From NCBI RefSeq assembly GCF_007995085.1, contig NZ_VOQS01000003.1, positions 2,852,001 through 2,916,000 on the forward strand: a stretch of 64,000 nt of DNA, given 5' to 3'. The number at the start of each line of letters is the position of its first letter. The first letter of the stretch is position 1. A program made the translations under genes and the position numbers. The DNA is from Paraburkholderia azotifigens (GTDB taxonomy: Bacteria; Pseudomonadota; Gammaproteobacteria; Burkholderiales; Burkholderiaceae). The notes beneath the pieces are model-generated. The model saw only the letters and a list, made by a program, of their open reading frames with translations. It was not told the DNA's origin and searched no databases. This document shows positions 3,210 to 21,635 of the stretch, in pieces.

Positions 3210-3560
3210 TCACGCGTCATCCGCCTCAGCATCACCCGGGTCGAATCGAGCTATCAGGTTCCTGCATGCCTGCAGAGCAAATGACCTTGCCCACTCCTCT
3301 GTCCGTTTGAGTTCTGGATCGAGGCGAGCAAGAGCTTCGGGAGCCCAGAGATGCCGCTGAGCTTCAAGAGGCAAATGATCGGTTTCAGACATGATGACTA
3401 GAAAGACGCCAAAATCAGCATCACGCTCGGCAATACCAATTAACCGATTCTTTATGGTGTGCACCTGTACTGCCCCCTCAAGGAACGACACCTTGCCGTC
3501 AAGCATGGCATGAGCCAACTCGACCAATCTTCGGCGCTCCATCATCTCGCGTTCATTCAT
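3210..3560 (-). CDS. Candidate CDI immunity protein
   Basis: A small soluble, acidic-leaning protein of 116 residues starting MNEREMMERRRLVELA. No signal peptide or membrane segment is seen. It starts 13 bp after the stop of the giant CdiA-like gene and on the same strand, exactly where the cognate immunity gene lies in cdiAI/bcpAI loci. I do not recognise the fold or family. The role (binding and neutralising the C-terminal toxin of CdiA in the cytoplasm) is inferred from position and size. The ~200 bp between it and the IS6 element hold no convincing gene; if the locus once had further toxin/immunity cassettes, the IS may have removed them. Confidence 0.65.
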   Translation of the reverse strand: MNEREMMERRRLVELAHAMLDGKVSFLEGAVQVHTIKNRLIGIAERDADFGVFLVIMSETDHLPLEAQRHLWAPEALARLDPELKRTEEWARSFALQACRNLIARFDPGDAEADDA

Positions 3561-3573
3561 TGCTTGCTACCAC

Positions 3574-6500
3574 TCATTTCAATGGGATCGATTTTGGTTC
3601 CACGACTCGACCGGTCACGGCATTTCTATATGCATGAATTTCGAACTGTGTTCCGTCGGCCGCCGTATAACTTGAACTACTCACCTTACTCCAATCGCTG
3701 AGCTGCCCTCCATATTCCGATACCAAGCGAGGAGCATCCCTGAGAATAACACCTGTCCCGTTGCCCGAAGTAGCCACTCCGTTCCCGGACATCAACTCGG
3801 ACAACTGCTGCTGGCTTGCCAATGACTTGTTGAGATTTAACCCGTTGACCGCGTTTGCTGCACTGTCCGACCCAGCTGCACTGCTTGTGGACCGACTGCC
3901 AAGTCCTGTAATTCCATCAACCGCGCCAGAGGCGTCCAATGGCGAGATTCCGGCAAATATGGTCGCCCACGCCGATGAGCCCGACGAAGCCAGCATTGCC
4001 TGATATTGATTCTGTTGGGCAACCGCATTGGAAACGCTGTTCCAGTTCGACGTTGCAAGGGACTTCGCACTGGAAGCCTGATTTGCCAACGACTCCATGA
4101 ACTGCGCACATTTGGTGCCACCCTGGCAGGCCGCCTCGATGTCGGCTTCGCTTACTCCACCCGATTGCATCGCGTCGTATTGCACCTGCTGACAGCCAGA
4201 CGGGCTGTTGCAATTCTGTGCAGCCTGTTGCTGCTGCGTTGAGATCGATTGGTAAGTCGCTACCGTCAGGCTTACACAACTCGTATCACCTGGCGCGCAA
4301 CCCTTCAATGTAGCCAGAAGACTTTGCACTTGCCTGTGATTCAAGTAGTTATTGAGCGTCTCGTTTTGGGCCGCCGTCACCGCACCCTGAACATTGAACC
4401 CGAGGGCGCCTGCAATGCTGCCGCTCACCAATGTTTCGATGCCAGCCAAGGCTGCGGCTGGAATGTTGCCATTGGCGTCAAGAATCGGGTTCAGGCCAGC
4501 CGACACTACGCCACCGATTGCCCCTCCTGCGCAACCTGTTCCCTCCAGCGCGCTTGCCGCGCATCCGAGGCCAGCATGGGCAGCAAGGTACGCGAACCTC
4601 CCGCCCACTGAACCCAGGTCACCTACCAGGCCATCTTTTGCATCTCCAATCTCCGAGGCACCGGCCGCAGCCAACTCACTCGTTAACGCATTCACGAATG
4701 AGCTGGCGAGGCTTCCTCCTTCAATTGCAGTGCTCACCCCAGCGGCAATGCCCGCGTCGGCAAGCATCGCGAGACCTCGTTGGGTCAGCGTTGCAGTGGT
4801 CGTTGTCGACTGGTTTACGTTGGTCCCTGCAATCTGGCTAACGCCCGCAAGACTCGCAAGAGATTGGGTCGCTCCATTAAGAGCCAGAGGCTGCGTCGTA
4901 AAGTCGAGACCTGACTGTGCGTTATACGTGATGCCATTGGTGAGACCGGCCGTGAGACCCGCAACACCGGCGGCCTCAAACGCGTTTGCCCAGTTCAACT
5001 GACCTGTCATGGTCAGTTGCGATGCGATGCTCGACGTGAAGCCCGCAGCGGCAGCCGACAATGCGATATTGGCCAGCCCGGCCGAAGTCGCGACGCCGTT
5101 GGCTGCCGCCGTCGCGGTCGCCGCACTGGCAAATGCCCCGCCTTCCGCGCCAGCTGTCGCGCCAATTGCGGCGCTCGCGGCTCCGGCCGTCATGATGGCT
5201 ACGACTACTGCGAACACCATACCGACGATCTGAGACGCACCAAACCCGCCCTGCGCCACAAAATCCGTATGCAGGTTGTCCGTAACGGTCGTCTGCGTGA
5301 AGCTGGTACCGAGCTGTTGCTGCAGTTGCGCCAGCAACTGCTGGGTTCCAGCCTGGTCAATGGTGCCGTCAGCATTGAGTTGCTGCAGTGCCCCGCCGAT
5401 CTGGTTGAGCGTCTGGACGTTCAGGTCCATGCCCGCCGCGCTCATGAAACCGCCGGGCTGGACAGCCGTACCGGTCGTGTTGGAGTACCCCACCTCGTTG
5501 ATATAGCTCCAGATCTGACCCACATCGACCTGGTTGGCCCGGTTGGTCAGCGTCCCCGTGTTGACCGTGAGCGTATTGGAGGCGGTGATATCGCCCGTGT
5601 TGAGGATACTGCCGTTGCCATCCTTGTTGAAGTTGAGCGTAACATCCTTGCCCGTGATGGTCCCGTCCGCAGACATCGCGCTCCAGTTCTGCGGCAGATA
5701 CACCTGCGGCATGAGTGCCGTCACCGTCGGACAAGTGACCGGGCCTGTCGACACACAGCTCGGGTCGGGAACGGACTGCTGCACGTACCAGAGCATCGGC
5801 TCGCTCAGCGTGCTGAGCTGCGTTTGCGTCAGTGCATCTCCGAGTTGCAGGTTGTTGGTCTTCGCGTAGTCAACCGCGTTCTGATACAGGATCTCCTTTT
5901 CCTGCGCAGTGACGGACAGGTTGTGCTCACTGTCGTACGTCAATCCATCGATAAAGCTCGCCTTGCCCGTCTGCTGCAGCGCCGCCTGCTGAAGCATCAG
6001 GTCTTCCGCCTGCGGATTGTAGTAAAAGAGCGTCGAACCCGGCTGAAGATTCGCGGGCAGGTTGTCGAGCAGCGCCTGCGGACCGAGCGGATCGAGTGCC
6101 GAACCGCCGAGCGAGCCCGTCACATACGATGCCTGTCCCGCTACTGGGATGGGCAGCGGTGCGCCGACCGAGCGCGGCGTCGTCAGATTCAGTCCGGGAA
6201 GATTGACGCCGCTCAGCGAAATGATCTGCGACGGCGAATTGACGTGCGGCGTGTAGGTATTCGCCGCCGTAATGCCGTTGATGAGCCGCTGTCCCGTCAA
6301 CGTCACCGACGTGCCGATCACGTTCCCGACGTTCTGGATCTCACCTCCAGACGAAACCGACAGGTTCGGCGCCTGAATCGTTGCAGCAATATTGCCGACT
6401 GGCGTGGGCGGATCGATCGTACCGCCGACATTTGTATAGGCACTGCCATAGAGTGCTGTACATTCCTCGGGTGAACCGCATGCCCATACGTCATGTCGCT

Positions 6501-9500
6501 TGTCCGGACTAAAATCCCCGGTCTCCTGGACCCAGTGCGAGTGCCAGTACGCATTGAGCGTTTGCGCTTCGTTCACGACAGGCCCTGCGACAGCAATCGT
6601 CGCGTTGTTGCCCGCCGCAATCAGGCTGCCAATGTTAGTAAGGCTTCCAGCATTGAGCTGGAGGTTATTTCCCGCGCTGATGACCGACGAATTCCCCGCC
6701 TGCTGGTCAACGTAACCTTCGCAATAGCTCTCCTTGTAGCCGCCCACCGTCATACAGCCAGAGTATTGTTCTTTCGCGCCGTAATCCGAGTGCACAGGAA
6801 CGGGTGGAGGCAGGTTATTGGTGATCGCGCCCGAAACGTTGAGCGTGATGTTGTTACCGGCGATGATGTTGCCAGACGTGTTGTTCAGGCTCTGCGCCGC
6901 CGTCGTGGAGGTGGCTGTCGTACCGACGCCACCAATGACAATGTTGTGCCCCGCCAGCAAGTTGCCGTACGTGTTGTTGATCTGCCCCGCAGCGATGACC
7001 AAATCATTGCCCGCGAACACTGTCGCGTTTTGCTGCGCATACGAGAACGTGGTCGAATTCGGATTATCGCCACGAAACGAGTTGTTTGCGTAGCCACACT
7101 CCGCGCCGCTTACACCGGTAGCGCAACCGGGCTGCGTAGAAGTAGCGGAATTGTATTGCCCCTGATTTGCAAATGATTGCGCGGCGCTCGCGTTGAAATT
7201 GTTGCCTGCATACAGCAATCCGCCGTTCACCAGATTCCCGCCGGACAGATTCATGTTGCGCCCAGCGATAATCTGCCCTTGTGCTCCGAACGCCGTTGTC
7301 GTACTGGTCACGCTCGGCGGCACATTCGCGCTCGAATTGAATGAAACGGTCGACTCCGGCACCACCGTTCCGGAAATACCTATGCCGACTGTCCCGTAGA
7401 CGCCGACGACGCCCAACGCATTCATCTGCGCCATGAACGCGTCGAGTTGTGCCTTATCAACCGTATCGACAATGGTCGCAACGGCATTGCCTACCGGTGC
7501 GTTGTTGAGCGACTGCAGGTTCAGGTTGACATCAAGTCCGGCCGAGATCGTGCTGCCGGCGTTCGATAGGGTGCCTGCCGTGATATTGACGCTGCCGCCG
7601 GCCGCAATCACCCCAGGAGTTACGGACCCGGGTGCAGTGATCGTCCGGTCGATCCCAGGCAACGCGATGTACTGGTGTTGCCCTGCCGTGGAGTTGCCAA
7701 CCTCTACGTCCTGACAGGCGCTCGGATCGCCATAGCATGTGCTTCCGCCGCTGCGGACATCGACGTATCCGCCACTCATGTTCGGCAACAAGGTGGCGAT
7801 AGTGGCGGTCTGCGAGTACTGGTACAGATAGCAGTCGCCCTGGCTGTTCTGGCAGTACCAGCCAGACAATGCTCCGACCACGATCTGGCTCAAGAGATCC
7901 GGATCCGCCGAAGCGCCGACCAGTTGTGTGGACGTTTGTGTCGCGCCCTGCAACGCATCGTTGATGACCGCGCCGGCATTGATATTGATGTTGCCGCCGG
8001 CAAGAATCGTCCCGACCGTGTTATAGACGGTCGCGCCCGTGGTGATGCTGATACTGCCGTTCGCCTGCGTCGTGCCGTACTGATTGTCGTAGTTGCCGCC
8101 GCCGTTGAACGTCAGGTTCCCTGCGCTCTCGATCGTGCCGCGATTCGTGACGCTGCCGTTCAATGTGATCGAACTGCCGCTATGCACGACCGCGTTGGTC
8201 GCATTGTTCAATGCGCCGTTGAAGGCGATGTCATTGCCCGTCAATTGACCGAAGTTGCTGAACGTCCCGTAAGTGGTCAGCGACAGCGGCGCCGTGCCGG
8301 TGATCATGCCGTAGTTGTTGATTCCGTTCAGGCCAACGACAGTTGCGCCCTGACCACCAAAGTTCCACGTGCCGCTGTTACCGATGAATCCGGCCGTCAG
8401 CGAGAGCTGTCCACCGTAACTGATCGTGCCCTGCGAGGGGTCGAACGTCGCATTGGCTGCACCGACGCCCATATTGCGCTGCGAGAGCAACTGACCGCCT
8501 ACGTTGTAGAAGGCGCCACCGCCGCCGTTGATTGTGAGCGACACATCGCCCGTGACGGGGCCTCCCGGCGTGTTCGGATTGCCCGCGAAGATCAACCCGT
8601 TCTGGTTATTCAGCGTCCCAGTGTTGATGTTGAGGCTGTTGACGGCCATCAGCGAGCCGCCGATGTTATTCATTGCGCCCGCGACGTAAATGTTCGTGGT
8701 CGCGCCGTTCACCAGACCCGCATTCGTGAAGTTCGTCGCGGTGATGTTCGTCGTGACCGTCGACGCGAGCGAGCCCGTCGCGGCATTCGTCAGATTGGGC
8801 GCGCTGACGGTCAGCGCGCCGCCTGCCAGCACGTTGCTCGCGTTGTAGAAGGCGTTTTGCGACACGAAGGTCGCCGCGCCGACCACGTCGACATTGCCGC
8901 CCACCAGCGACAACTGGTTCGATGCGCGCGCATCGAGCGTACCGCCGACAATCGCGTTGCCGAGCGTGACATTCGTGCCCGCAACCTGAAGGTTCTTCGA
9001 CGACACGATGGACGACTGTCCCGCGTTGACGGTGCCCGTCGCGTTGATCGAAATGTCTTTCGATCCGCTCGCCGTTCCGCTCATCGTGACGTTGTTGCCG
9101 GAGAGCGCGAGTTCGCCCGCGGCAACGCTGTTGCCCGACAGCGTGAGCGTCTGTCCGGCATGCAGGCTCGCATCGCCATTCGACGACACGCCGCCCACCG
9201 TCACGTTGCCGTTGGTGCCCGTGACGTTGACCGTGCCCATCGACGCGATGCCGCCCGTCGCCGATGCATTGTTCGCCGCGCTGATTGTCGCGTTGCCGCC
9301 CGTCTGCACCTGTCCGCTGAACGCGACGCTGCCCGCGTGCGACGTCGCGACGATATCGCCCACGGCCGTCGCCGCGCCGAACGACATGTCGCCGTTCGAG
9401 GTCGCCGTGAATTTTCCAGCGCCCTGCACTTCGCCGAGCGCAACGCCGCCGCCCGCGTTGACGGCGATGTCCTTGCCGAAAGTCAGCGCGCCGCCGCCGT

Positions 9501-12500
9501 TGATCGAGCCGCCTGCATTGATGTTGGCAAGACCCAGGCCCATCAATGCACCGCCGAGCGTCGTCGTGCCGCCCGACGTCACATTCGTATCGCCATTGAT
9601 CAGGCCGCCCGACAGCAACGCGAGATTCCCGCCCGCGTTTGCCGTGAGATTGCCTTGCGTCGTGATCGCGCCGCCGACGCCCAGCGCGCCCGTCGTTGCC
9701 GTCAACGCGATGTTGTCGTTCGAGCCCGCCGCGCCGCCAATCAGCAGATTGCGTGCAGCGGAGACATTCACTGCATCCGCTGACGAAACCGATCCGCCGA
9801 TCAATGCATCGCGCGTTGCCGTAATCGATGTCGTCGAACCCGAGATGACGTCGCCCGCCACCACTACATCGCCTGCGCTGTTGTGGCCTTGTGCGTTCAA
9901 CCGCAGCGTACCGCCCGCCTGCGCCGCGCCCAGCGAGATATCGTTGCCCGCCGTTACGGCAAGGCTGCCGTTTGTGCCCACCACGCCTGTCACGTTGACA
10001 CTGCCGCCTGCGTTCACGGTCGCCTGCTGGCCGAATCCAACCGAACCTGCGTTGATGTCGCCGCCCGCCGTCAGCGTGCCCGTGTTCTGCGCGCCGATGC
10101 CGCCCGTCAGCGTCATGTTGCCGCCGGACGTCAAATGCGCATCGCCGCCCACCGTCGTCACGCCGGAAAAGGCCAGAGCCTGTGCCGCGTTCACATTCAA
10201 CTGGCCTTGCGTCGTGACGTTGCCCGCCGAGCCGTTGCCACTCGTCGCCGTGAGCGTGAGGTCGCCTGCCGAGTTCACATCGCCGAGCGCGAAGTTGCGC
10301 GCCGCGTTGACGGTCGTCGTGCCGCCCGTGTTGATCGCACCGGCTGCCGTCACGTCGCGCGTGCCATTCAGGAGCATCGTGCCGAATGCGGTGGCGCTGC
10401 CCGCAAACGTGACGTCGCCGCCGCCCGCGTTGCCGTTGGCCCTCACGGTCAGATCGCCGGTCACGGCTTGCACACTGCCGAGGCCCGCGTTGTTGCCGCC
10501 AATGATGGAAACAGTCGATCCTTGCAACGCGCCCGTCAGCGCAAGATCGCGCGCTGACGTCAGCGTCGCGGCCTGCGCAAATGCTGCCGACCCAGCGCCG
10601 TTGATGTCCCGGCCCGCGTTGAGCACCCCGTCCATCTGTCCCGCGACAACGCCCGTCAGCGCGATATCGCGACCTGCCTGAACGTTGATCTGCTTCGCCG
10701 CTGCAATCTGTCCGCCGAGTTGCGTATCGAGCGCCGATACAACATTGAACGCGCCCGCCGTCGCCGCCGTTCCCGTGAAGGACGCGCTGCCCGTCATCGC
10801 CGTCGCGTTGAGATCACCGGTCGATTCGATGGTGCCCGTCACCGTCACGTTGCGTTGGCCTGTCAGCGTCAACGCGTCGCCGCTCGCGAGCGAGCCGCTC
10901 ACGATGGCATCGCGTGCGCCCGTCAGATGGATCGCCCCTGGCGCCGTCGCGGTGCCCGTGATCGCCGCATCGCCCGCGCCTGCGTTGCCATTTGCCGTGA
11001 CGTCGAGCGTCGTCGCCGATATCACGTCATGCAGCGCGGCATTATTGCCGCCCGTTGCCGTTACGACGTTCGCCTGCACGCCACCCATCAGCGCGATATC
11101 GTGCTGCGCGGCAAAGCTTGCCGTCTCCGTGATCTTCTGCGTGCCGCCGCCCGTGATATCGCGTGCCGCCGTGACAGTTGCATTCGAGCCGCCGACCATC
11201 GTGCCGTTCAGCACGGCGTCGCGTCCCGCCGTCAGCGTGATGTCGTTGACGGCACTCGTGCTGCTGCCGAGCGACAGGTCGAGGCCCGTCGTGATAGCGA
11301 GCTTGCCGCCGCTGTTGATGCCGCCCGTCGCGGACAGGCTGCCCGTCTGCGCATTGAGCGTTGCATCGCCGACCGACTCGACTGCGCCGTCGATATTGAT
11401 GTTGTGTTGTGCCGTGACAGACGTCGTCGTGCCGCTCGCAATCTTTCCGCTCGATGTGACGGAGACGTCGTTGTTCGCATCGACGGTCACAGTGCCCGCC
11501 GCTGCCGCAGCGCCCGTCACCGTGACGTTGCCCGCGCCGTTGACGCTGTTCGTGCCGTTCGCCCGCAATGCAATCATGCTCGCGGATTCGATGTTGTTGA
11601 CGGTCGCGTTGCCCGCCACAGTGATATCGACGGACTGGCCCTGCACGAGCCCGCCTTGCACGATGTCGCGATTCGCGGCAAGTGTCGCGGCCTGCGCGAA
11701 AGTCAGCGTCCCCGCCCCGCCGATGTCGCGGCCCGCTGTCACCGTCCCTTGTCCCAGACCTGCGAGCATGCCCGTCACGTTGACATCGCGCGCTGCGTTG
11801 AGCATCGCATCCGATGCGGCCGTCGTGGTGCCGCCCAGATTGATATCCGTGCCTGCAAGCGCGGTGAACGTGCTGTTGCTGTTGATAACGCCCGTCGAGC
11901 CGATGCTGCCCGCCGCCGCGTTCAGCAGCATGTCGCTGGACGACTGGATCGAACCCGTCACGCCGCTGTTCCGCCCGGCATTCAGCACAACAGTCGAACC
12001 GCCGACCACGGCGCCCGTGATGTTCAGATCGTTGGTTGCGTTGAGCGCAAGCGTCGATGCCGCCTGCACGTCGTGCAGCGACGCCGAGCCACCCGCATTG
12101 GTTTGCACTGTTCCCGCGCGCAGCGAACCTGTGAGATTCGTATCGCCGCCCGACGCCACGTTTGCATTCAGCCCAAGCGCGATGGTTGCACTGCCGCCGA
12201 TTGCATCGCCCGCGTTGAACGTTCCGTTGCCTTGCGCGACGACGGAGCCGTTAATCGTCAGATTCTGGCCGGCCGTCACGTCGATATCGCCGAGCGACGA
12301 CGTGCCCTGCGTACCGAGATCGACGGATTGCGCGGCGCTGATGTTGAGATTGCCGCCCGACTGGATGTTGCCCTTGCTCGTCAGGTTGCCCGATGCGTTC
12401 GTGAGCGTCATATCGCCATTGGACTGCACGGTGCCCGCGTTCGTCGTGTCGCGTCCGCTCGTTACGCTCAACGCGTTCGCGCTTTGCAACGTGCCGTTCG

Positions 12501-15312
12501 AACTCACGCTGATATCGCGTGCGGAGTTCAGGGTCGCCGTCGAAAGCGAGGTGACCGTGCCGCCAATCGCAATGTCGCCTGCGTTGGTTATCACCTGCAA
12601 TGCCGCGTTGGACACGACGTTATTCAGCGACACTGAGTTCACCGCCGAGAAGCTGACGGCATTGCCTTGCAATGCGCCCGTCACCGACAGATCATTGCCC
12701 GCCGTCGCGTTCACATCGCCTGCAAAGCCGCTATTGCCGCCCGCGACGATGTCATGCCCCGCCGACAACATCGCCTTCGCCTGTCCGGCCAGCGAGCCGC
12801 CTATCGTCAGATCGTGACCCGCGTTGAGCGTGACGTCGTTGACGGCGCTCGTGTCGCCCGTCAGCGAAACGTCCTGTGCCGCGTTCACCGAAAGCGCGGA
12901 CGCACCGTTGACCGTTCCCGTCGACGTCACGCTTCCCGTCGCCGCAGTGATCGAAAGGTCGCCGACCGACTGCACCGTGCCCGCATTCGCGACGTTGACA
13001 TTGCGTTGCGCAGTAAGCGCCGTTTGCGCGCCACCGGCTAAGGTTCCGTTCACGGCGATATCGCGGGCCGCCTGCACGTTCGTCGCGCCGACACTCGCTG
13101 CATTGCCATTGAACGTGACGTCGCCGCCGCCCGCGTTGCCGTTCGCCGTCACGGCAAACGCGCCGCCCGCCTGCACTGCGGCAAGCGTGACGTTGTTTGC
13201 GCCCGTGACGGTCAGATCGTTGGCGAGCAGTTTGCCCGTCAGTGCAACGTCGTGCCCTGCGTTCAACGTTCCGCTTTGTCCGAACGCGATCGATCCGCTG
13301 CCTGTCACATCGTTCTGTGCATCGAACGCGCCGTTGTGCTGGACGATCGATACCCCCGATACATCCAGATTGCGCCCCGCCGATACCTGTGCGTCCGTGC
13401 CGACCATCAGCGAACCCGACACCGACGTATCGCGGCCCGATGTCGAACTGAACGTCGCGCCGCTCGCGAGCGACCCGCTCACCGACAGATCGCGTCCTGC
13501 CGCTGCCGTCACTGCGTTTTGCGCAGTGGCCTGCGCCGCAATCGACGTGTCCTGCCCCGATGTGAGCGTCAGGTTTGCGCCGCTGTTGACGTTGGCGTTC
13601 GCGTTGATATTGCCCTGCGTAGCGGACACGGTTGCATCGCTGGCCGTCTGCACGGCTGCCGTCACGTTGACGTTGCGCTGCGCCGTCGCCTGCAATGTGC
13701 CGCTGTTCGTCTGGCCGGCAATGTTCACATCGCGTGCGGCCTGCAGCGTCGTCGCGCCGCTGACCACGGCAGTGCCGTTCAGGTTGACATCGCCCGCAGC
13801 CGATACGCTCACCGCGCCGCCGCCCTGCACATCGCCCAGCGTGACATTCGAACCCGCCGACATCGCGATATCGCCATTCGCCTGCGTGTTCGCGAGATTG
13901 ACGTTGCCGCCCGCTGTCACGTCGAGTTTCGCGCCGGACTGCAGCGTACCCGTCGACGTCACATCGCCATTCGCATTGATCGTGTAGCCGCCGACGCCGA
14001 CGTGCGCGCCCGTCATCGATACGTTGCCCGCCGACTGTAATGTCGCCTGCTTCTGCGCGGCCGTGCCCGCCACCGATACATCGCCGTTCGCCGACAGCAG
14101 CAGATCGCCCGCATTGGCGGCAAGTTGCGCATCACTGCGCACGCCCATGCCTGCTGCCGTGCTGATCACCTGGATCTGGCCCGCCGTCATCGCGCCGAAT
14201 GCCGTGGCATCGATCGCAAGACCGTTGTTCGCGTTGCCGTTTGCGCCATTGATGGCCGCCGCCGTATTCACGCTGCCATTCGACGATGTGCCATACGTCG
14301 TACCCACATCGGACACCGCGCCCGGCGACACGAACTGACGCCCGGCAATTGCATTGATGCGACTGCCCGCAAAGAGCGGCGCATTCACGCCGATGGTTTC
14401 GGCGATCAGATCGATCGTGCCGACCGTGCCTTCGATCCCTGCGCCCGGACCGTTCGCGCCAGCATTCCCTTCGATCTGGATATGCCCGCCCGTCACGTTG
14501 TAGCCGACGGCCGTCGCGTGAATGAAGTCGGTGCGCGTGCCGTTCATGTCGCTGAGAAACTGCGGCGTGCCTGTGGTCAGCGTGACGCCGATCGTGTTCG
14601 TGAAGCCTGTGCCGCGTGTCGTGATGCCGTTCGGGTTCGCGATGATGACGGTCGCGGGTGCGCCGAACACTTCGAGCGGGCCATTGAGCAGACTGGCATA
14701 CGCCGCGCCGTTCGACGTCACCTGATTGACGATCACACTCGCCGTGCGCCCCGCCAGATTCGTGTTCGCCGCGACGTTGCCGCCCGTGAGCGACGTGCCC
14801 GACATCAGGCTGTTGTTCAGGATCAGCCCGATGGGATCGATATTGAAGCTCTGATACTGGTTCAGCGAGATCCCCGCCGTGTTCGGCGCGGTGATATTGA
14901 CGACGGGCACGCCGCCGTTCGCGCCCGTGCTCTGCGTGATCTTCGGCTGGAAGGTGATGGGCGCATTCGGATCGACGATGGGCGTCGCGAAAGCCTGCTG
15001 CATCATGACGCGCACACGCAACCCAGTCAGGTCGCGGAGCTGTTGCCATGCGTCGTCGTCGAAGCGTTTGCTGCCCGCTGCAAGCATGCCTGCCGCCGAT
15101 TCGCTCTGCTCGAACGTAACCGTCAGCGGTCCGATGAACAGCGTCGCGGCCACCACAGCGGATACGCTGCGTTGCCACACGCTGTACGTTCGTACCTTCG
15201 AGGCGACGGTCCAGATCTGGCCGGACGTTTCGTGCAGGCGCGCACGCAGCACATCCCGCATCGTCCGGACGTGTTCAAGTTGCCGCAAGGCATTACGCGT
15301 CGAAACTCTCAT
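3574..15312 (-). CDS. cdiA: Giant CdiA/FhaB-like hemagglutinin (TpsA exoprotein, contact-dependent inhibition)
   Basis: 3912 residues. An extended N-terminal region with a hydrophobic segment at ~48-67 acts as the signal. The TPS secretion domain follows, with the NPNGI motif at 226-230. A very long array of filamentous-hemagglutinin repeats comes next (pattern AGxDxxxxGxL, about 390-2100). A non-repeat region with Cys-containing segments follows, then a hydrophobic Ala/Gly-rich pretoxin region (FAVVVAIMTAGAASAAIGA), a NNYLNHRQ segment and a short C-terminal module of ~89 residues. That module contains RLVSEYGG, DWSKVSSSSY and DGTQFEIHAY. The family is exported by a TpsB partner, forms a surface filament and delivers its C-terminus into neighbouring cells. 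The TpsB gene lies two genes upstream. The tip has no nuclease motif I can name; its activity is unknown. Confidence 0.93.
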   Translation of the reverse strand: MRVSTRNALRQLEHVRTMRDVLRARLHETSGQIWTVASKVRTYSVWQRSVSAVVAATLFIGPLTVTFEQSESAAGMLAAGSKRFDDDAWQQLRDLTGLRVRVMMQQAFATPIVDPNAPITFQPKITQSTGANGGVPVVNITAPNTAGISLNQYQSFNIDPIGLILNNSLMSGTSLTGGNVAANTNLAGRTASVIVNQVTSNGAAYASLLNGPLEVFGAPATVIIANPNGITTRGTGFTNTIGVTLTTGTPQFLSDMNGTRTDFIHATAVGYNVTGGHIQIEGNAGANGPGAGIEGTVGTIDLIAETIGVNAPLFAGSRINAIAGRQFVSPGAVSDVGTTYGTSSNGSVNTAAAINGANGNANNGLAIDATAFGAMTAGQIQVISTAAGMGVRSDAQLAANAGDLLLSANGDVSVAGTAAQKQATLQSAGNVSMTGAHVGVGGYTINANGDVTSTGTLQSGAKLDVTAGGNVNLANTQANGDIAMSAGSNVTLGDVQGGGAVSVSAAGDVNLNGTAVVSGATTLQAARDVNIAGQTNSGTLQATAQRNVNVTAAVQTASDATVSATQGNINANANVNSGANLTLTSGQDTSIAAQATAQNAVTAAAGRDLSVSGSLASGATFSSTSGRDTSVSGSLMVGTDAQVSAGRNLDVSGVSIVQHNGAFDAQNDVTGSGSIAFGQSGTLNAGHDVALTGKLLANDLTVTGANNVTLAAVQAGGAFAVTANGNAGGGDVTFNGNAASVGATNVQAARDIAVNGTLAGGAQTALTAQRNVNVANAGTVQSVGDLSITAATGSVTSTGTVNGASALSVNAAQDVSLTGDTSAVNDVTLNAGHDLTIGGSLAGQAKAMLSAGHDIVAGGNSGFAGDVNATAGNDLSVTGALQGNAVSFSAVNSVSLNNVVSNAALQVITNAGDIAIGGTVTSLSTATLNSARDISVSSNGTLQSANALSVTSGRDTTNAGTVQSNGDMTLTNASGNLTSKGNIQSGGNLNISAAQSVDLGTQGTSSLGDIDVTAGQNLTINGSVVAQGNGTFNAGDAIGGSATIALGLNANVASGGDTNLTGSLRAGTVQTNAGGSASLHDVQAASTLALNATNDLNITGAVVGGSTVVLNAGRNSGVTGSIQSSSDMLLNAAAGSIGSTGVINSNSTFTALAGTDINLGGTTTAASDAMLNAARDVNVTGMLAGLGQGTVTAGRDIGGAGTLTFAQAATLAANRDIVQGGLVQGQSVDITVAGNATVNNIESASMIALRANGTNSVNGAGNVTVTGAAAAAGTVTVDANNDVSVTSSGKIASGTTTSVTAQHNINIDGAVESVGDATLNAQTGSLSATGGINSGGKLAITTGLDLSLGSSTSAVNDITLTAGRDAVLNGTMVGGSNATVTAARDITGGGTQKITETASFAAQHDIALMGGVQANVVTATGGNNAALHDVISATTLDVTANGNAGAGDAAITGTATAPGAIHLTGARDAIVSGSLASGDALTLTGQRNVTVTGTIESTGDLNATAMTGSASFTGTAATAGAFNVVSALDTQLGGQIAAAKQINVQAGRDIALTGVVAGQMDGVLNAGRDINGAGSAAFAQAATLTSARDLALTGALQGSTVSIIGGNNAGLGSVQAVTGDLTVRANGNAGGGDVTFAGSATAFGTMLLNGTRDVTAAGAINTGGTTTVNAARNFALGDVNSAGDLTLTATSGNGSAGNVTTQGQLNVNAAQALAFSGVTTVGGDAHLTSGGNMTLTGGIGAQNTGTLTAGGDINAGSVGFGQQATVNAGGSVNVTGVVGTNGSLAVTAGNDISLGAAQAGGTLRLNAQGHNSAGDVVVAGDVISGSTTSITATRDALIGGSVSSADAVNVSAARNLLIGGAAGSNDNIALTATTGALGVGGAITTQGNLTANAGGNLALLSGGLINGDTNVTSGGTTTLGGALMGLGLANINAGGSINGGGALTFGKDIAVNAGGGVALGEVQGAGKFTATSNGDMSFGAATAVGDIVATSHAGSVAFSGQVQTGGNATISAANNASATGGIASMGTVNVTGTNGNVTVGGVSSNGDASLHAGQTLTLSGNSVAAGELALSGNNVTMSGTASGSKDISINATGTVNAGQSSIVSSKNLQVAGTNVTLGNAIVGGTLDARASNQLSLVGGNVDVVGAATFVSQNAFYNASNVLAGGALTVSAPNLTNAATGSLASTVTTNITATNFTNAGLVNGATTNIYVAGAMNNIGGSLMAVNSLNINTGTLNNQNGLIFAGNPNTPGGPVTGDVSLTINGGGGAFYNVGGQLLSQRNMGVGAANATFDPSQGTISYGGQLSLTAGFIGNSGTWNFGGQGATVVGLNGINNYGMITGTAPLSLTTYGTFSNFGQLTGNDIAFNGALNNATNAVVHSGSSITLNGSVTNRGTIESAGNLTFNGGGNYDNQYGTTQANGSISITTGATVYNTVGTILAGGNININAGAVINDALQGATQTSTQLVGASADPDLLSQIVVGALSGWYCQNSQGDCYLYQYSQTATIATLLPNMSGGYVDVRSGGSTCYGDPSACQDVEVGNSTAGQHQYIALPGIDRTITAPGSVTPGVIAAGGSVNITAGTLSNAGSTISAGLDVNLNLQSLNNAPVGNAVATIVDTVDKAQLDAFMAQMNALGVVGVYGTVGIGISGTVVPESTVSFNSSANVPPSVTSTTTAFGAQGQIIAGRNMNLSGGNLVNGGLLYAGNNFNASAAQSFANQGQYNSATSTQPGCATGVSGAECGYANNSFRGDNPNSTTFSYAQQNATVFAGNDLVIAAGQINNTYGNLLAGHNIVIGGVGTTATSTTAAQSLNNTSGNIIAGNNITLNVSGAITNNLPPPVPVHSDYGAKEQYSGCMTVGGYKESYCEGYVDQQAGNSSVISAGNNLQLNAGSLTNIGSLIAAGNNATIAVAGPVVNEAQTLNAYWHSHWVQETGDFSPDKRHDVWACGSPEECTALYGSAYTNVGGTIDPPTPVGNIAATIQAPNLSVSSGGEIQNVGNVIGTSVTLTGQRLINGITAANTYTPHVNSPSQIISLSGVNLPGLNLTTPRSVGAPLPIPVAGQASYVTGSLGGSALDPLGPQALLDNLPANLQPGSTLFYYNPQAEDLMLQQAALQQTGKASFIDGLTYDSEHNLSVTAQEKEILYQNAVDYAKTNNLQLGDALTQTQLSTLSEPMLWYVQQSVPDPSCVSTGPVTCPTVTALMPQVYLPQNWSAMSADGTITGKDVTLNFNKDGNGSILNTGDITASNTLTVNTGTLTNRANQVDVGQIWSYINEVGYSNTTGTAVQPGGFMSAAGMDLNVQTLNQIGGALQQLNADGTIDQAGTQQLLAQLQQQLGTSFTQTTVTDNLHTDFVAQGGFGASQIVGMVFAVVVAIMTAGAASAAIGATAGAEGGAFASAATATAAANGVATSAGLANIALSAAAAGFTSSIASQLTMTGQLNWANAFEAAGVAGLTAGLTNGITYNAQSGLDFTTQPLALNGATQSLASLAGVSQIAGTNVNQSTTTTATLTQRGLAMLADAGIAAGVSTAIEGGSLASSFVNALTSELAAAGASEIGDAKDGLVGDLGSVGGRFAYLAAHAGLGCAASALEGTGCAGGAIGGVVSAGLNPILDANGNIPAAALAGIETLVSGSIAGALGFNVQGAVTAAQNETLNNYLNHRQVQSLLATLKGCAPGDTSCVSLTVATYQSISTQQQQAAQNCNSPSGCQQVQYDAMQSGGVSEADIEAACQGGTKCAQFMESLANQASSAKSLATSNWNSVSNAVAQQNQYQAMLASSGSSAWATIFAGISPLDASGAVDGITGLGSRSTSSAAGSDSAANAVNGLNLNKSLASQQQLSELMSGNGVATSGNGTGVILRDAPRLVSEYGGQLSDWSKVSSSSYTAADGTQFEIHAYRNAVTGRVVEPKSIPLK
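9000..14150 (-). repeat. Hemagglutinin beta-helix repeat array inside cdiA
   Basis: This part of cdiA encodes dozens of degenerate ~20-residue units. Each follows a pattern like AGRDINVTGxL or NAARDVNVTGML, alternating with AxxxVTLxAxxDL. On DNA level the same GC-rich words recur many times without being identical. The units are expected to stack as a beta-helix and form the shaft of the exoprotein. The array makes the opposite strand open over long stretches, which produces spurious frames. Confidence 0.85.
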
Positions 15313-15439
15313 GATGTTCTCGTTCTTCGTCGTTTCTTGTTCGTCATGAGGCGAGCTGGCCGACTCGCCTCACGTTTGCAGCAGGTATTTCCCCGCCTGC
15401 TGCGGGCCTCGTACGCGCGAAGCCTCTCGTGCTTCTGTC

Positions 15440-16351
15440 TTACTGCTGCTGAATGGTCGCGCTCTTCATCAGATCGACCACCACCTGCGCGGTCGCTTTT
15501 TGCAGCGCGACCTGCTCGAGTTGCTGACGCAACGCAGGCTTCGTCGTCTCGTAGTCGGGAATCTGCGTCGCGCGCGACTGATCCATCTTCACGATCCAGA
15601 AGGCGTCGCCCACCTGAACCGGCGTCGTCGTGATGCCGCCTTGCGGCAGCTTCACCATCGCCTCGGCGACGGGTTGCGGCCAGCCTTGCGTCGCGCCCGG
15701 CTGGATCGGCGTCTTGAACGACACCCAGTTCATCGCGCCACCCTGCTGAGCCGCCGGGCCCTGGCTGTACTGCTTCGCCAGTTGCGCGAAGTCGGTCCCC
15801 TTCTTCAGTTGCGCGAGCACGTCCTTTGCGGTCGCTTCGTCCTTCACGGCGATCACGCTCGGCTTGTATTCCTTGTCGCCGAGCGTCGCGACGATCGCGT
15901 CGTAGCGCGCCTTCACGTCGGCGTCGGTGACGGGCGAAGGCTTCACCTGATCGCGCAGATACGCTTGCGTCATCGCGAGCGACTTCGCCTGTTCGGCGGC
16001 TTCGATCACCTGCGGACGCGTGTCGTAGTGCTGCTTCTCGGCGGCCTGGCGGAACAGTTCGCGTGCGATCAGCTGGCTTTTGATCGCCGAGCGCGTTTGC
16101 GGCGTGTCGGGTGCATTGGCCGCCTTCAGCAGCGCGTCGACCTGGTCCTGCGTGATCAGCACGCTGTTCACGCGTGCAACGGCATTGGCGGGCAGCGGGC
16201 CCGACGCAGCGACGGGTGCAGCCGCCTCCGCATGCGACGACGATGGCTTGGTGGCCGCCATCGACTGCACTGCGAAGACAGACAAGCCGACAGTCAGCGC
16301 AAGCGCAGCGACGCAACGGCTGAACGTGATGTGATTACGATGGCGTTTCAT
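15440..16351 (-). CDS. Periplasmic parvulin-type peptidyl-prolyl isomerase (PpiC/SurA-like)
   Basis: 303 residues. A signal peptide (MKRHRNHITFSRC...VFAVQSMAA) is followed by a SurA-N-like helical domain and a PpiC rotamase domain at roughly 160-260 (KDVLAQLKKGTDFAQLAKQYSQGP, then GGAMNWV and VQVGDAFWIVKM). It would assist folding of outer-membrane or exported proteins in the periplasm. The ATG at 16351 is chosen over one 15 bp upstream because AAGGAG sits at the right distance. It lies between the TpsB gene (11 bp away) and cdiA (127 bp away), so it is probably a dedicated chaperone for one or both exoproteins. Bordetella Par27, a parvulin that handles FHA, is a known parallel. Confidence 0.9.
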   Translation of the reverse strand: MKRHRNHITFSRCVAALALTVGLSVFAVQSMAATKPSSSHAEAAAPVAASGPLPANAVARVNSVLITQDQVDALLKAANAPDTPQTRSAIKSQLIARELFRQAAEKQHYDTRPQVIEAAEQAKSLAMTQAYLRDQVKPSPVTDADVKARYDAIVATLGDKEYKPSVIAVKDEATAKDVLAQLKKGTDFAQLAKQYSQGPAAQQGGAMNWVSFKTPIQPGATQGWPQPVAEAMVKLPQGGITTTPVQVGDAFWIVKMDQSRATQIPDYETTKPALRQQLEQVALQKATAQVVVDLMKSATIQQQ

Positions 16352-16362
16352 GTCGATCTCCT

Positions 16363-18165
16363 TCATTCCGACCAGTTAAGAGTGGCGAGCAGCACGGTGG
16401 CCTTGTGACCCAGCGCGGCAGGCTGAATCAATGCCTGGCCGAGCAGTACCTCGCCTGTGATGGTTTGCGCGTTGTGCCGCCATTCGGCTCGCGCGCCGAT
16501 GCCGGTACCGACGAGCGTCGGCCAGCCGCCTTGTGCTACGAGATGGGATTTGCCGCCGTCGAGAAACACATAGGGTTCGACGCGCGCGTCGTGCCATGCG
16601 GGCACGTTCTGCCATGCGGCCTCGTTCCGGATATAAGCGCCGCTGTCGCCGGCGATGCCGCCTTCCGTGAAGCCGCGCACCGAGTCCATGCCGCCGAGAT
16701 AGATCTGCTGCGTGCCGAACAGCGCGACCCGGCTGAACTGTCCTCGCAATGTGCCGCGATACGCCCATTGCGTGCCCAGCAGCGAGCCGAGCGTCATCTG
16801 CAACGTCGCGGTTGCATCGAGCCTGGTGAACTGGCTGTGGGCGTCCGACTTGCCGATCTCGCTATCGTCATGACTGGCGGCGAGCCAGGGCAGACCTTGC
16901 GAGATGCCGAAGTCCCACGTCGCGGCGGCGCCTTGATCGTTTGCCACGAAACGCTGCAATCCATTCAGCGCGACACGCGCGACCGTCAGGTCTTGCGGCG
17001 ACAGGTCGATGCCGTTCACGCTGCGCTCGGTGCGCATCTTGTTCAGCGTGACGTCGACGCTCATGCGGCCCGACTTCGAGCGCGCGAGCACATCGTTCCA
17101 GCCGAGAATCTGGCTGAACGTGCGCCCTTGCAGCAACGCCGTATCGCCGATCGTCTGCTGATACTCGGAATACGAGGTCGTATAGCTCAGCGTCTGATAG
17201 CCGAACGGAACGGCAGCGGAGAAGACCAGCGCGTTGCTGTCTTCCGTGCCGACATAGTTGAGCGACAGCGATTCCTGCAGACCGATCACGTTGTCGGCCT
17301 CGACGCCGCCGCGATAGCGCAGTGTGCCCGTTTGCGAACTGCCGTAATTGTCGATGCCGAGGTTGTAGAACGTGCGGTCGCCGTAGCGGTTCGAGATCGC
17401 GACGATCGAATCGCCGGGCGCTTCGCCGGGCATGATCTGGATTTCCGCCTGATTGCGGCGCAGCCGGTTGATCTGGTCGACGCCCTGTTCGAGATCGGGA
17501 AGGCGCAGCACGTCGCCGACACTGTCGCCGAATGACCACGCTGTGCCCGCATCGGTGAGCAGGCCGCCGCCGTGAGTGTCGTACCAGGGCTCGTTCGGAT
17601 CGCGTGGACGCAGCGGCTTGCCGTTCAGCGTAAAGCCCGCCACCTTGCCCGCGACGATATTGACCTTGAGCGTCCCCGACGCAAGGTTCTGCGCACCGAG
17701 ATAAGCGCGCGTCGTGATATAGCCGCGCGCGATGAACGCCTCCGTCACGCGACGCAGCAGCAGATTGATCCGGTTTCGTCCAAGCTGCTTGCCGACGAAC
17801 GGCTCCGCAATGCGGTCCAGTTCTTTCTGGCTCAACACGCGATCGCCGATGAACTCGATGTGACTGATCTCGAACATCGGTTCGACGTCGGGCAGCGTCT
17901 CGACGTCCGCGCCTTCAGGCAGATTCGGCAACGCGGGCACTTCGGGCGCGGCGATCTGCGCGGGCGCCTGCTGGATTTCCTTGCGGCGCTGTCTGTCCTG
18001 CTGCTCCTGCAACAGCCGTTGACCCGGATCCTGTTCCGCGCGACCGGGCAATGCATTCAACCCGCCTGGCGGCAATGGTGGAAGAGTCTGTGCGAACGCA
18101 CCCGCGTGCACGCTGACCGCGAACACGGCAACACAACTGCGCAGGATCACAGGGCGTCGTTTCAT
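16363..18165 (-). CDS. TpsB/CdiB-type two-partner secretion transporter (FhaC/ShlB family)
   Basis: 600 residues. A signal peptide (MKRRPVILRSC...GAFAQ) is followed by a Gln/Arg-rich linker with HlyB-type QQDRQRRKEIQQ, then POTRA domains (~95-250, FEISHIEFIGDRVLSQKELD) and a 16-strand Omp85-type barrel. The diagnostic L6 motif is seen as GGMDSVRGFTEGG. The ATG overlaps the stop of the upstream tpsA gene (ATGA), implying translational coupling. A longer frame reaching 18615 is only an extension inside tpsA. It is the only TpsB in the window and is therefore expected to export both the 715-aa and the 3912-aa exoproteins. Confidence 0.95.
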   Translation of the reverse strand: MKRRPVILRSCVAVFAVSVHAGAFAQTLPPLPPGGLNALPGRAEQDPGQRLLQEQQDRQRRKEIQQAPAQIAAPEVPALPNLPEGADVETLPDVEPMFEISHIEFIGDRVLSQKELDRIAEPFVGKQLGRNRINLLLRRVTEAFIARGYITTRAYLGAQNLASGTLKVNIVAGKVAGFTLNGKPLRPRDPNEPWYDTHGGGLLTDAGTAWSFGDSVGDVLRLPDLEQGVDQINRLRRNQAEIQIMPGEAPGDSIVAISNRYGDRTFYNLGIDNYGSSQTGTLRYRGGVEADNVIGLQESLSLNYVGTEDSNALVFSAAVPFGYQTLSYTTSYSEYQQTIGDTALLQGRTFSQILGWNDVLARSKSGRMSVDVTLNKMRTERSVNGIDLSPQDLTVARVALNGLQRFVANDQGAAATWDFGISQGLPWLAASHDDSEIGKSDAHSQFTRLDATATLQMTLGSLLGTQWAYRGTLRGQFSRVALFGTQQIYLGGMDSVRGFTEGGIAGDSGAYIRNEAAWQNVPAWHDARVEPYVFLDGGKSHLVAQGGWPTLVGTGIGARAEWRHNAQTITGEVLLGQALIQPAALGHKATVLLATLNWSE

Positions 18166-20309
18166 AGACCGAACCACGAAACGAGGCCGAGGTGATTGTG
18201 ATTGCCGATCGTCACGGGCGCGCGGTACGGCAAGCGGATCGTGTTGACGCCGCCTGCCGCGTGAATGCCGCCCGGCGCGTTGAACGCGCCGCCGTCGATG
18301 TCCGCTTCGCCCGTCAGTTCGACCTGGCCGTTGCCGCCCGTGAAGATGCCGCCCGTATCGGCTGCGTAAATGGCGGCCCATGTGTTGCCGAACCAGGTCT
18401 TCAGATCGTTGCGCCGGTTGATGACCGTGTAGCCGAGCACACCCTGCGCAAGGGTCTTCGGTGCATCGAGCTTCAGATTGCCGATCGCGATCACCGTGCC
18501 GCCCGTGTTCGTGATCTGTGTGCCCGCCTTGAGCGTGATGTCCTTGCCCGCCTCCATCACGCCGCCGAAGGCTTGCACATTGCTCGACGCGCTTGCGCTG
18601 CAAAAGATGAAGCACGACTGGTGATACGACGCCTGCCCGGCAAATACGCCTTGCGTCAGCAGATTCTGCGCAGCCGTGATCGAGATGCTGCCGTCGTTCG
18701 ACAGGATCGAGCCGCCGACGTTGTTGACGTTGCGCGCGTTGATCGTAACGTTGCCGCTATCGGCCGTGATGTACGAGAGCTTGTCGGGGTCTCCCAGCGC
18801 GCCGTAGTCGACTGTGAAGCCGTTCTCGTGGTGCTGCACGAAAATCAGTCGCCAGCTCTTTTCCGAATAGCCGACGGCCGTGCCGCCATTCACGCCGCTC
18901 GAATGATCGATGATGTTGCCGACGTCGCCCGCTGCCGTGAGCGTCACGTTGCTGTTCGACAGGATGCGCGCATCCTCGTTGGTGATGTTGCCGCCTGCAT
19001 TGACGACGACATCGCCGTTGACGCCGAACAGCACACCAAGCTTCGAGGTCGTAGTCGATTGATTCAACACGTTGCCCGATGCGTTCAGCGTGACTGCGCC
19101 TTTGGAGTCGCTGTCGCTCGTCGTTTGCGTTTGGCCTTGAATCAGCGAGCCGACATTCACGATGTCCTGACTGCTTTTGACGACGACGCCCGCATTCGAA
19201 GAAGCGATCACCGTCTGCGGACCGCTGTCGTTGTACAGCTTCACGCCGCCGCCACTCAGATTGATACCGCTGCCCGCCAATAGCGACGTGCCGTTGAATG
19301 TCAGCAAACCCGTCGATGCAATCGTGGCCGCATTGCCCGCTTGCATCTGCGTCGAAATGGCCGTCAGCGTGTCCTGCACCTGCATGTTCACGCTGCCGTT
19401 CGCCTGCAGGGTTGTATTCGAGAACTCGACAGCGCCATTCGATGCGAGCGTGAAGTCGCCGAGCGTCGCGTTCATCGGGCCCGCGCTGCGCACGCCAGGC
19501 CCTTTGTCGGTCACGATCAGCTGCACGCGGCCGCTGGTGAGCGAGCCCGCTGCCGTGATGTCGACGGCAAATGAATTTGCCGTGCCGTGCGTTGCGGAGG
19601 CGTTGAGCGAGAGCCAGTCGTTTGCATTGTCGTTCGGCGAAACGCCCGTATTGAGCGTGACGTTGCTCGTCCCGCCGAGCAGGCGCACGGTCGCCGTCGG
19701 CGAGGTGAAGGTGTTATTGAGCGGTCCGTTGACGAAGATGTTCTTCGCGATGAGATCGAGTGCAACGAGCGCGCTCGACAGTCCTTGCGGTCCGACGATG
19801 ATCGTTCCCGTCCTCGTATCGAGCACGACGTTACGCTGTAGCACGGACCCTGTCATGACATCGTTGAAGCTGACCTGCCCCGTCGACAGCGCCACATGAC
19901 CCGTGTTGACGAACGAGCCGCCGTTGATCGTGATGCCGTTCGGATTGGCGAGCACGACATTCGCGCGCGAACCGAGCACGGCGAGTTGGCCCGAGATCAC
20001 ACTTGGATCCGTGCTCGTCACCTGGTTGACGATGGTTCGCGCGTTGATGCCGACGTTGTTGAGATCGACGCCCGCACTGCCGACGTTGAAGTGGCTATAC
20101 GTGTTGTGCGATACGCCGCCCGTGGCGGGCGCGATGTTGACGGTCTGATGCCCGTTCGCAGCCGTCGATACGGATGTGGCCGTGCCACCGTCCGCCACCA
20201 CACCGGCCGCGTGCACGTGCATGGACGCCAGCGTCAAACAAAACAAACACAACTGCACTATCCGCCGGCCTGTGCCGCCGGCGCCTTCGTTGACAGATTC
20301 CCTCGACAT
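18162..20309 (-). CDS. Short filamentous-hemagglutinin-type exoprotein (TpsA)
   Basis: 715 residues. A signal peptide (RIVQLCLFCLTLASMHVHAAG) leads into a TPS domain with the typical HNTYSHFNV and NPNGI motifs (~60-280), then a limited set of beta-helix repeats. It ends without the pretoxin or toxin modules seen in the giant partner. The two cysteines in SCFIFCSAS are notable for this family. It heads the operon tpsA-tpsB-parvulin-cdiA-immunity and overlaps tpsB by four bases. Possible roles are an adhesin or a structural partner of the giant protein. The start at 20309 has a weak ribosome-binding site and could be shifted slightly. Confidence 0.9.
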   Translation of the reverse strand: MSRESVNEGAGGTGRRIVQLCLFCLTLASMHVHAAGVVADGGTATSVSTAANGHQTVNIAPATGGVSHNTYSHFNVGSAGVDLNNVGINARTIVNQVTSTDPSVISGQLAVLGSRANVVLANPNGITINGGSFVNTGHVALSTGQVSFNDVMTGSVLQRNVVLDTRTGTIIVGPQGLSSALVALDLIAKNIFVNGPLNNTFTSPTATVRLLGGTSNVTLNTGVSPNDNANDWLSLNASATHGTANSFAVDITAAGSLTSGRVQLIVTDKGPGVRSAGPMNATLGDFTLASNGAVEFSNTTLQANGSVNMQVQDTLTAISTQMQAGNAATIASTGLLTFNGTSLLAGSGINLSGGGVKLYNDSGPQTVIASSNAGVVVKSSQDIVNVGSLIQGQTQTTSDSDSKGAVTLNASGNVLNQSTTTSKLGVLFGVNGDVVVNAGGNITNEDARILSNSNVTLTAAGDVGNIIDHSSGVNGGTAVGYSEKSWRLIFVQHHENGFTVDYGALGDPDKLSYITADSGNVTINARNVNNVGGSILSNDGSISITAAQNLLTQGVFAGQASYHQSCFIFCSASASSNVQAFGGVMEAGKDITLKAGTQITNTGGTVIAIGNLKLDAPKTLAQGVLGYTVINRRNDLKTWFGNTWAAIYAADTGGIFTGGNGQVELTGEADIDGGAFNAPGGIHAAGGVNTIRLPYRAPVTIGNHNHLGLVSWFGL

Positions 20310-21219: not shown

Positions 21220-21558
21220 TCAATGGTTGCATTTCGGCGACGTGAGCGCGCGATTAATCAATAACTGTGCGCCATCAGGCCATTGATCGGGATTAGCGTC
21301 AATGTACGCACGGACCGTTCGCAGTTCGTCGTTCGTTGAGTGCAGCCCAGATTCGTCACAAACGAGTCCCAATGTCCGTCCATACTCTGCGCTTCCATGA
21401 ACGTATCCAGTGACGTAGGTGGCGAGTTGGGTAATAGAGGATGCTTTACCGCCTAGCGCTTGATCCAGACCGCGCATCAGTTCGTCAACAGTAAGGGCAA
21501 AACAGCCCTGCGTTACAGTCAGTGCTACGGCAAAAACACCTACCGATTTTCTATACAT
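21220..21558 (-). CDS. Rap1a/Tai-like small secreted protein
   Basis: 112 residues from the ATG at 21558 (MYRKSVGVFAVALTV...CFA signal peptide). The mature part has the family pattern: a YVTGYVHG segment, then LVCDESG, a helix with VRAYIDANPDQWPDGAQLLINRAL and a terminal Cys (SPKCNH). Rap1a/Tai proteins are periplasmic, and some are immunity proteins against T6SS amidase effectors. No effector gene is adjacent, so this may be an orphan immunity gene or a general envelope protein. An ATG 9 bp upstream (21567), directly after GAGGG, is a possible alternative start. Confidence 0.65.
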   Translation of the reverse strand: MYRKSVGVFAVALTVTQGCFALTVDELMRGLDQALGGKASSITQLATYVTGYVHGSAEYGRTLGLVCDESGLHSTNDELRTVRAYIDANPDQWPDGAQLLINRALTSPKCNH

Positions 21559-21635
21559 CCTCGACATCCCTCGTTCAAATCGAGTCAGACACCGCGCCTG
21601 GTGCGAATGAATCTTGAATCGGCAAGGCATTGGTG

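Follow-up and report, generated by a model that had tools for sequence, protein, structure and literature searches.

A probable contact-dependent inhibition locus of Paraburkholderia azotifigens with two exoproteins and one transporter

A 64,000-nt stretch of the Paraburkholderia azotifigens genome (the window; coordinates below are positions in it, and those prefixed G000:C3 refer to the contig of the organism's own genome) carries at 3210–20309, on the minus strand, five open reading frames in the order short tpsA, tpsB, parvulin, giant tpsA and small gene, which together probably constitute a contact-dependent growth inhibition (CDI) system of a type in which two exoproteins share a locus with one transporter. 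Descriptions of CDI usually name a single exoprotein alongside one transporter and one immunity protein. All five genes, which a preliminary description of this DNA had put on one strand with short overlaps or gaps, are present where it placed them: 4-nt overlaps join tpsA to tpsB and tpsB to the parvulin gene, and gaps of 127 nt and 13 nt follow the parvulin gene and the giant, respectively. Exoproteins with two-partner secretion (TPS) domains and a TpsB with POTRA and ShlB domains identify the locus as a TPS (type Vb) system, in which two exoproteins accompany a single TpsB (16363–18165; 600 aa; POTRA_2, POTRA_3 and ShlB, 246.5 bits); the VRGF motif attributed earlier to this TpsB is readable in its translated sequence. 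Features of the locus named below all lie on the minus strand. A scan of the locus for promoters and terminators gave a result at chance level.

The giant TpsA (3574–15312; 3,912 aa) contains a TPS domain (PF05860; 14071–14925, G000:C3:2866071-2866925), a TIGR01901 match and, at residues 3417–3601, a DUF637 domain (PF04830; 4510–5064; 66.2 bits against a cut-off of 26.6), followed by the junction motif QNETLNN (residues 3649–3655; 4348–4368) and by a 257-aa variable C-terminus (3577–4347) that is the probable toxin region, as judged by divergence past the motif. This make-up agrees with the toxin-tipped giant of the preliminary description, and from this anatomy we infer that the protein is a CDI-type CdiA with an exchangeable toxin after DUF637 and NETLNN. 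The motif reads NExxNN across related giants. It occurs as (Q/E/D/A)NExxNN near the end of 31 of the 34 giants that share the gene order of the window (the window included), as NExxNN with any preceding letter in 11 of 15 giants of a second gene order described below, and, among three far giants examined, in that of genome G443 only. When these 31 giants were compared in pairs, alignments covering more than 70% of the shorter piece were obtained in 396 of 465 cases with the 250 residues that precede the motif and in 6 of 465 with the parts that follow it; outside this count were giants cut by a contig end (L047), split (L076) or bearing a different tail (L075). The same locus is carried by plasmids of P. 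largidicola and P. caribensis, whose giants, compared with that of the window in 200-residue steps, are 81–94% identical along the backbone to residue 3400, 66–77% identical in the next step and 18–30% identical in the last two; other genes follow these giants than in the window, Imm74 among them in P. largidicola. Thus a conserved CdiA backbone is followed, after a fixed motif, by a polymorphic C-terminus, as is characteristic of CDI.

The composition and distribution of the tail were also examined. G+C content is 0.635 in the backbone, 0.522 in the last 105 codons of the giant, 0.569 in the stretch preceding them and 0.536 in the small gene. Extra C-terminal fragments of giants, counted by eye, lie downstream in 14 of the 33 other loci with the gene order of the window. 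The tail of the window giant is rare, being found in 2 of the 249 genomes sampled from its family (its own counted), and four other proteins of hemagglutinin type, from Burkholderia, Herbaspirillum, Cupriavidus and Yersinia, share similarity with its last ~100 residues. A comparison of the tail with PDB sequences gave no match at E ≤ 1, and therefore we propose no activity for it; PT-VENN (PF04829) was not reported in the domain scans of the giant.

The small gene (3210–3560; 116 aa) is a probable immunity gene, with a DUF2489-like match (PF10675; 27.1 bits against a cut-off of 27.0); the CDI arrangement of an immunity gene directly 3′ of cdiA is seen here in position alone, across the 13-nt gap. 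In genome G054, two DUF2489-like matches come after a related tail, and genome G133 holds, ~4 kb past its own giant, a copy of the last 17 residues of the tail (88%) together with an 85% identical immunity gene. A second DUF2489-like gene of P. azotifigens (G000:C3:3078412-3078705) is 46% identical to the immunity gene. Just past the immunity gene, at 2231–2965, lies an IS6/IS240-type transposase, and behind the immunity gene of the P. largidicola plasmid an IS6 transposase occupies a comparable position; such an element may perhaps be a route of tail exchange.

The five-gene order, which the preliminary description had proposed to seek in other Burkholderiaceae, is one of two orders in the wider family. 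Among 50 loci with short TpsA (window included), 34 have the order short TpsA, TpsB, parvulin and giant, 15 have the giant upstream and one (L083), cut by a contig end, stops after the parvulin gene; outside these 50 stood G147, fragments in G078, G138 and G245, and a degraded second copy in G051 (L088). All 34 loci of the first order, which include split genes (L076, L078) and loci where the contig or the fetched stretch ends inside the giant (L038, L047), lie on one strand with one TpsB each, and because this arrangement recurs in so many loci we regard the order as beyond chance. The 15 loci of the second order, exemplified by Burkholderia ambifaria plasmid pBMC401, come from 14 genomes; in 14 of these loci the giant is on the same strand at a distance of 0.6–7.9 kb, and in the fifteenth (G095) it lies ~17 kb upstream. 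For these same 15 loci (L061–L072, L074, L079 and L080) loss of the giant had been considered; it was rejected when a search with the giant N-terminus placed the giant upstream. N-terminal remnants of a giant lie downstream in L061 and in the degraded L088. An in-frame TpsB start codon falls within −16 to +4 nt of the tpsA stop in 46 of the 50 loci, with the exact ATGA overlap in 16. In one locus (L044, genome G189), the parvulin is 85% identical to that of the window and the short TpsA 62% identical, a contrast that suggests patchwork exchange inside the locus.

The two exoproteins also occur together. In the 249 genomes, the short TpsA (E ≤ 1e-20) was matched in 57, six of them weakly (75–85 bits) and taken as cross-matches of the TPS domain, and the N-terminus of the giant (E ≤ 1e-40) in 49. 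Of these 49, 48 also match the short TpsA, with at least 262 bits at the best place, some genes being split or broken; in the exception (G038), the giant is on a 3.9-kb contig that begins inside tpsB. In the opposite direction, in three genomes (G078, G138 and G245) the short TpsA is partial and the giant N-terminus is unmatched at E ≤ 1e-40. Fisher's test on co-occurrence, which treats the 249 genomes as independent, gave P ~ 1e-46, a value that overstates independence because the genomes are related. Matches to the giant were also present in all 12 Burkholderia or Paraburkholderia plasmid records whose match covers at least 93% of the short TpsA; one further P. caribensis plasmid record has only an 18% match to the short TpsA.

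Beyond the family, the last 315 residues of the short TpsA served as query against 398 genomes of the phylum (E ≤ 1e-8). Besides the organism's own genome, this found G443, of another family in the same taxonomic order, with short TpsA, TpsB and giant in that sequence, and G351, of the same phylum, where the giant is divergent from short TpsA and TpsB. On plasmids of Thioclava and Tritonibacter (L159), short TpsA and TpsB are convergent with a giant. The Tritonibacter plasmid had at one point been taken to have no giant; this was rejected, as the annotation table omits genes that cross the record start, and the giant spans it, with open frames of 1,110 codons (the TPS region of the giant) and 1,862 codons (ending beside an Imm63 gene) at the record ends. 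In this plasmid, short TpsA and TpsB are preceded by a TPR-annotated gene and followed by an RTX calcium-binding gene. All four far relatives therefore retain short TpsA, giant and TpsB; a parvulin model had no match in their four stretches. In a 32-row tree of TPS domains, near and far short TpsA proteins grouped together (support 93), as did near and far giants (96), with two BcpA-like domains apart; a larger tree, confined to near relatives, separated 44 short proteins from 35 giants. The depth of this split is suggestive only, because the two trees disagree on whether the BcpA-like domains are closer to the short proteins or to the giants, branches are long and rows gappy.

The short TpsA itself (18162–20309; 715 aa) has a signal peptide, recognized by eye, a TPS domain (PF05860, 118.9 bits; 19425–20207, G000:C3:2871425-2872207) and a β-helix. 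Its nearest named relatives, 90–93% identical, are from P. bengalensis, P. hospita, P. terrae, P. caribensis, P. largidicola and others. An AlphaFold2 (AF2) model built with 23 sequences comprises a signal helix and a β-helix (mean pLDDT 67.5, pTM 0.58), with poor confidence at residues 196–282, 471–489 and 625–651 and at both ends; Foldseek matched it at low TM-scores to HpmA, HxuA and EtpA, and its matches at E ≤ 0.001 were TPS β-helix proteins only. Neither the domain search nor the AF2 model revealed a toxin domain or an added domain, in keeping with the toxin-less short hemagglutinin proposed earlier. The sole cysteines beyond the signal peptide, Cys566 and Cys570 (18600–18614), are cysteines in all 43 aligned short TpsA proteins (window included; 8 of 51 rows, of lower score, were left out), and the far-relative proteins of Thioclava, G443 and G351 have a pair spaced as CxxxC or CxxxxC. 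Taken with its co-occurrence with the giant, the predicted fold suggests that the short TpsA is most likely a co-displayed surface accessory of CdiA, for example an adhesin or a docking partner.

In its strongest form, which we put forward tentatively, the proposal is of a distinct and old CDI class in which CdiA would work only with a second, short TpsA that has no toxin and leaves through the same TpsB; the accessory would cap or dock the filament or set up the shared transporter, the invariant cysteine pair would be its functional site, and in Burkholderiaceae the locus would encode its own parvulin. The short TpsA might instead be an independent adhesin that shares operon and transporter with CdiA and has no functional partnership with it. 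It has a TPS domain of its own and its nearest folds are ordinary TPS proteins, and sharing of a transporter by adhesins is known from the MhaB1/MhaB2/MhaC system of Moraxella catarrhalis, where one TpsB serves two exoproteins (PMC3699455, PMC9465073). MhaB1 and MhaB2, unlike the exoproteins here, are 99% identical over aa 72–399, and CDI features do not figure in the available passages of those papers. An independent adhesin would not be expected to track the giant in 48 of 49 genomes, to stay with it when the gene order changes and among distant relatives, and to be found without a giant match as only three partial copies among 249 genomes, and we consider this alternative rather unlikely.

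Whether one transporter could serve both exoproteins was assessed from gene content. The preliminary description had named a second tpsB near by as evidence against a shared transporter. None was found: the P. azotifigens genome has six TPS-domain and four TpsB matches, with one TpsB in this locus (the only one in the window) and the remaining three on the same contig, at distances of ~0.9 and 1.1 Mb, and on a different contig. TpsB (PF03865) and TPS (PF05860) matches were counted in 51 genomes (35 + 16). Exactly two TPS matches were found in nine of these; in eight, the two places listed correspond to the short TpsA and the giant, and in the ninth (G015) the second place is outside the matches listed, its giant being found by the giant N-terminus search. 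Four genomes (G189, G098, G443 and G351) have one TpsB each and, as their two TPS proteins, the short TpsA and the giant. In these four, therefore, one transporter serves both proteins, if both are secreted, and gene content thus strongly indicates that a single TpsB exports both exoproteins, as the preliminary description had supposed. That the TpsB of the locus exports the short TpsA only, the giant leaving through another TpsB such as BcpB, seems improbable: more than one TpsB match (some weak or broken) is present in 47 of the 51 genomes, the organism's own included, and BcpB transporters of Burkholderia are promiscuous, according to the available part of a published study (PMC10449530), but the four single-TpsB genomes, the presence of just one TpsB per locus in all 34 loci of the first order and the grouping of giant TPS domains apart from BcpA-like ones all speak for a shared transporter. 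In P. azotifigens itself, with its four TpsB genes, export of the giant by another TpsB is possible. A further TPS giant of this genome, of 3,113 aa (L085; G000:C3:1615972-1616715), may use the transporter of another locus, because no TpsB match occurs within the 20 kb fetched around it.

Comparison with known systems bore out the earlier claim that the order resembles neither bcpAIOB nor cdiBAI: the genes run short-B-parvulin-A-I or A-I-short-B-parvulin. As in cdiBAI, the transporter precedes CdiA and CdiI follows it. In cdiBAI, DUF637 stands before the toxin, as in the giant here. Unlike cdiBAI and cdiBCAI, this locus has a short TpsA as an additional gene ahead of TpsB, carries NExxNN rather than VENN and has a second order with the giant first, so that neither the plain B-A-I order nor a VENN or PT-VENN junction was found; in cdiBCAI, as far as the available text goes, CdiC sits where this locus has the parvulin. 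Bordetella FhaC, in the portions of the literature at hand, is likewise a TpsB with more than one TpsA. To our knowledge, no toxin/immunity pair lies beside FhaC, unlike in this locus, and the Par27 gene of Bordetella is unlinked, unlike the parvulin gene here. With bcpAIOB, as described in part of PMC3415462, the locus shares a giant TpsA with a polymorphic C-terminus past a conserved motif, a small gene directly 3′, a TpsB and overlapping host genera. It differs in that bcpAIOB has the order A-I-O-B, one exoprotein, the motif Nx(E/Q)LYN and BcpO; neither the order A-I-(O)-B nor that motif occurs here, where NExxNN and two exoproteins are found. An ordinary cdiBAI or bcpAIOB locus that received a parvulin and an adhesin gene by chance would account for the TpsB-CdiA-CdiI sub-order, with the parvulin in between, but is very hard to credit, being already contradicted by conservation of the arrangement in 34 + 15 loci and further disfavoured by the NExxNN junction, the unreported PT-VENN and a TpsB only 26–27% identical to the two BcpB-like proteins of its own genome (so named from gene order). 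In the open-licence literature, in the passages available (PMC3482391, PMC5422565 and PMC7474880 included), no account was found of a CDI locus that combines a parvulin with a second TpsA.

The parvulin-type peptidyl-prolyl isomerase (15440–16366; 308 aa; Rotamase_2, 53.3 bits, Rotamase_3 and Rotamase) resembles PrsA and SurA in library matches, with PrsA/SurA-type matches in the PDB, and, like Par27, combines a parvulin domain with a periplasmic location, here by a signal peptide seen by eye. We read it as a periplasmic chaperone that joined the locus in Burkholderiaceae. Of the dedicated chaperone earlier proposed, the linkage stood: the parvulin gene follows TpsB in 34 of 34 first-order and 14 of 15 second-order loci. 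Dedication itself is less well supported, as parvulins of the same group occur elsewhere, the far-relative loci have no parvulin match and, in the available part of the review PMC8151025, a Bordetella par27 mutant is reported to secrete FHA normally; Par27 binds a TpsA according to that source. Confinement of the group to TPS genes was rejected. In 31 further loci (L089–L119), parvulins are 38–52% identical to that of the window, and models found a TpsB only in L119, ~7 kb away. For ten parvulin loci in the six genomes with all PF05860 places listed (G049, G169, G181, G193, G211 and G223), none of these places lay within 60 kb; the search models can miss divergent TPS genes, as two giant TPS genes of L103 went unflagged. 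That locus (G095:C4:73501-93500), with a parvulin of the same group between the two giants, is possibly another arrangement.

Together, these data allow us to propose how the two-exoprotein system would work. Both TpsA proteins would be exported by Sec and may be kept unfolded in the periplasm by the parvulin; the single TpsB would then recognize the TPS domain of each and export both. The giant would form the CdiA filament, its part past DUF637 and NETLNN acting as the exchangeable toxin that the DUF2489-like protein would neutralize in the producer, and the short TpsA, a predicted toxin-free β-helical rod with an invariant cysteine pair, may aid contact or display at the surface. Several points weigh against this proposal. 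Kinship among the genomes makes the co-occurrence counts non-independent, and the accessory role of the short TpsA is drawn from co-occurrence and fold only. NExxNN is absent from 3 of 34 first-order, 4 of 15 second-order and 2 of 3 far giants, the DUF2489 match clears its cut-off by 0.1 bit, and long branches and gappy rows affect the far-relative trees. P. azotifigens itself holds four TpsB genes, TpsB specificity is described as relaxed in Burkholderia, in the accessible part of PMC10449530, and some of the censused genomes are drafts that may miss genes. If the proposal is true, a widespread class with two exoproteins would mean that display or delivery can require a surface partner, and that one TpsB can serve two different built-in substrates; both questions are open to direct gene-removal tests in the genomes that have just one TpsB and no TPS proteins beyond these two.

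Upstream of the operon, at 21220–21630, the window contains a weak Rap1a-like match (22.7 bits against a cut-off of 27.7).
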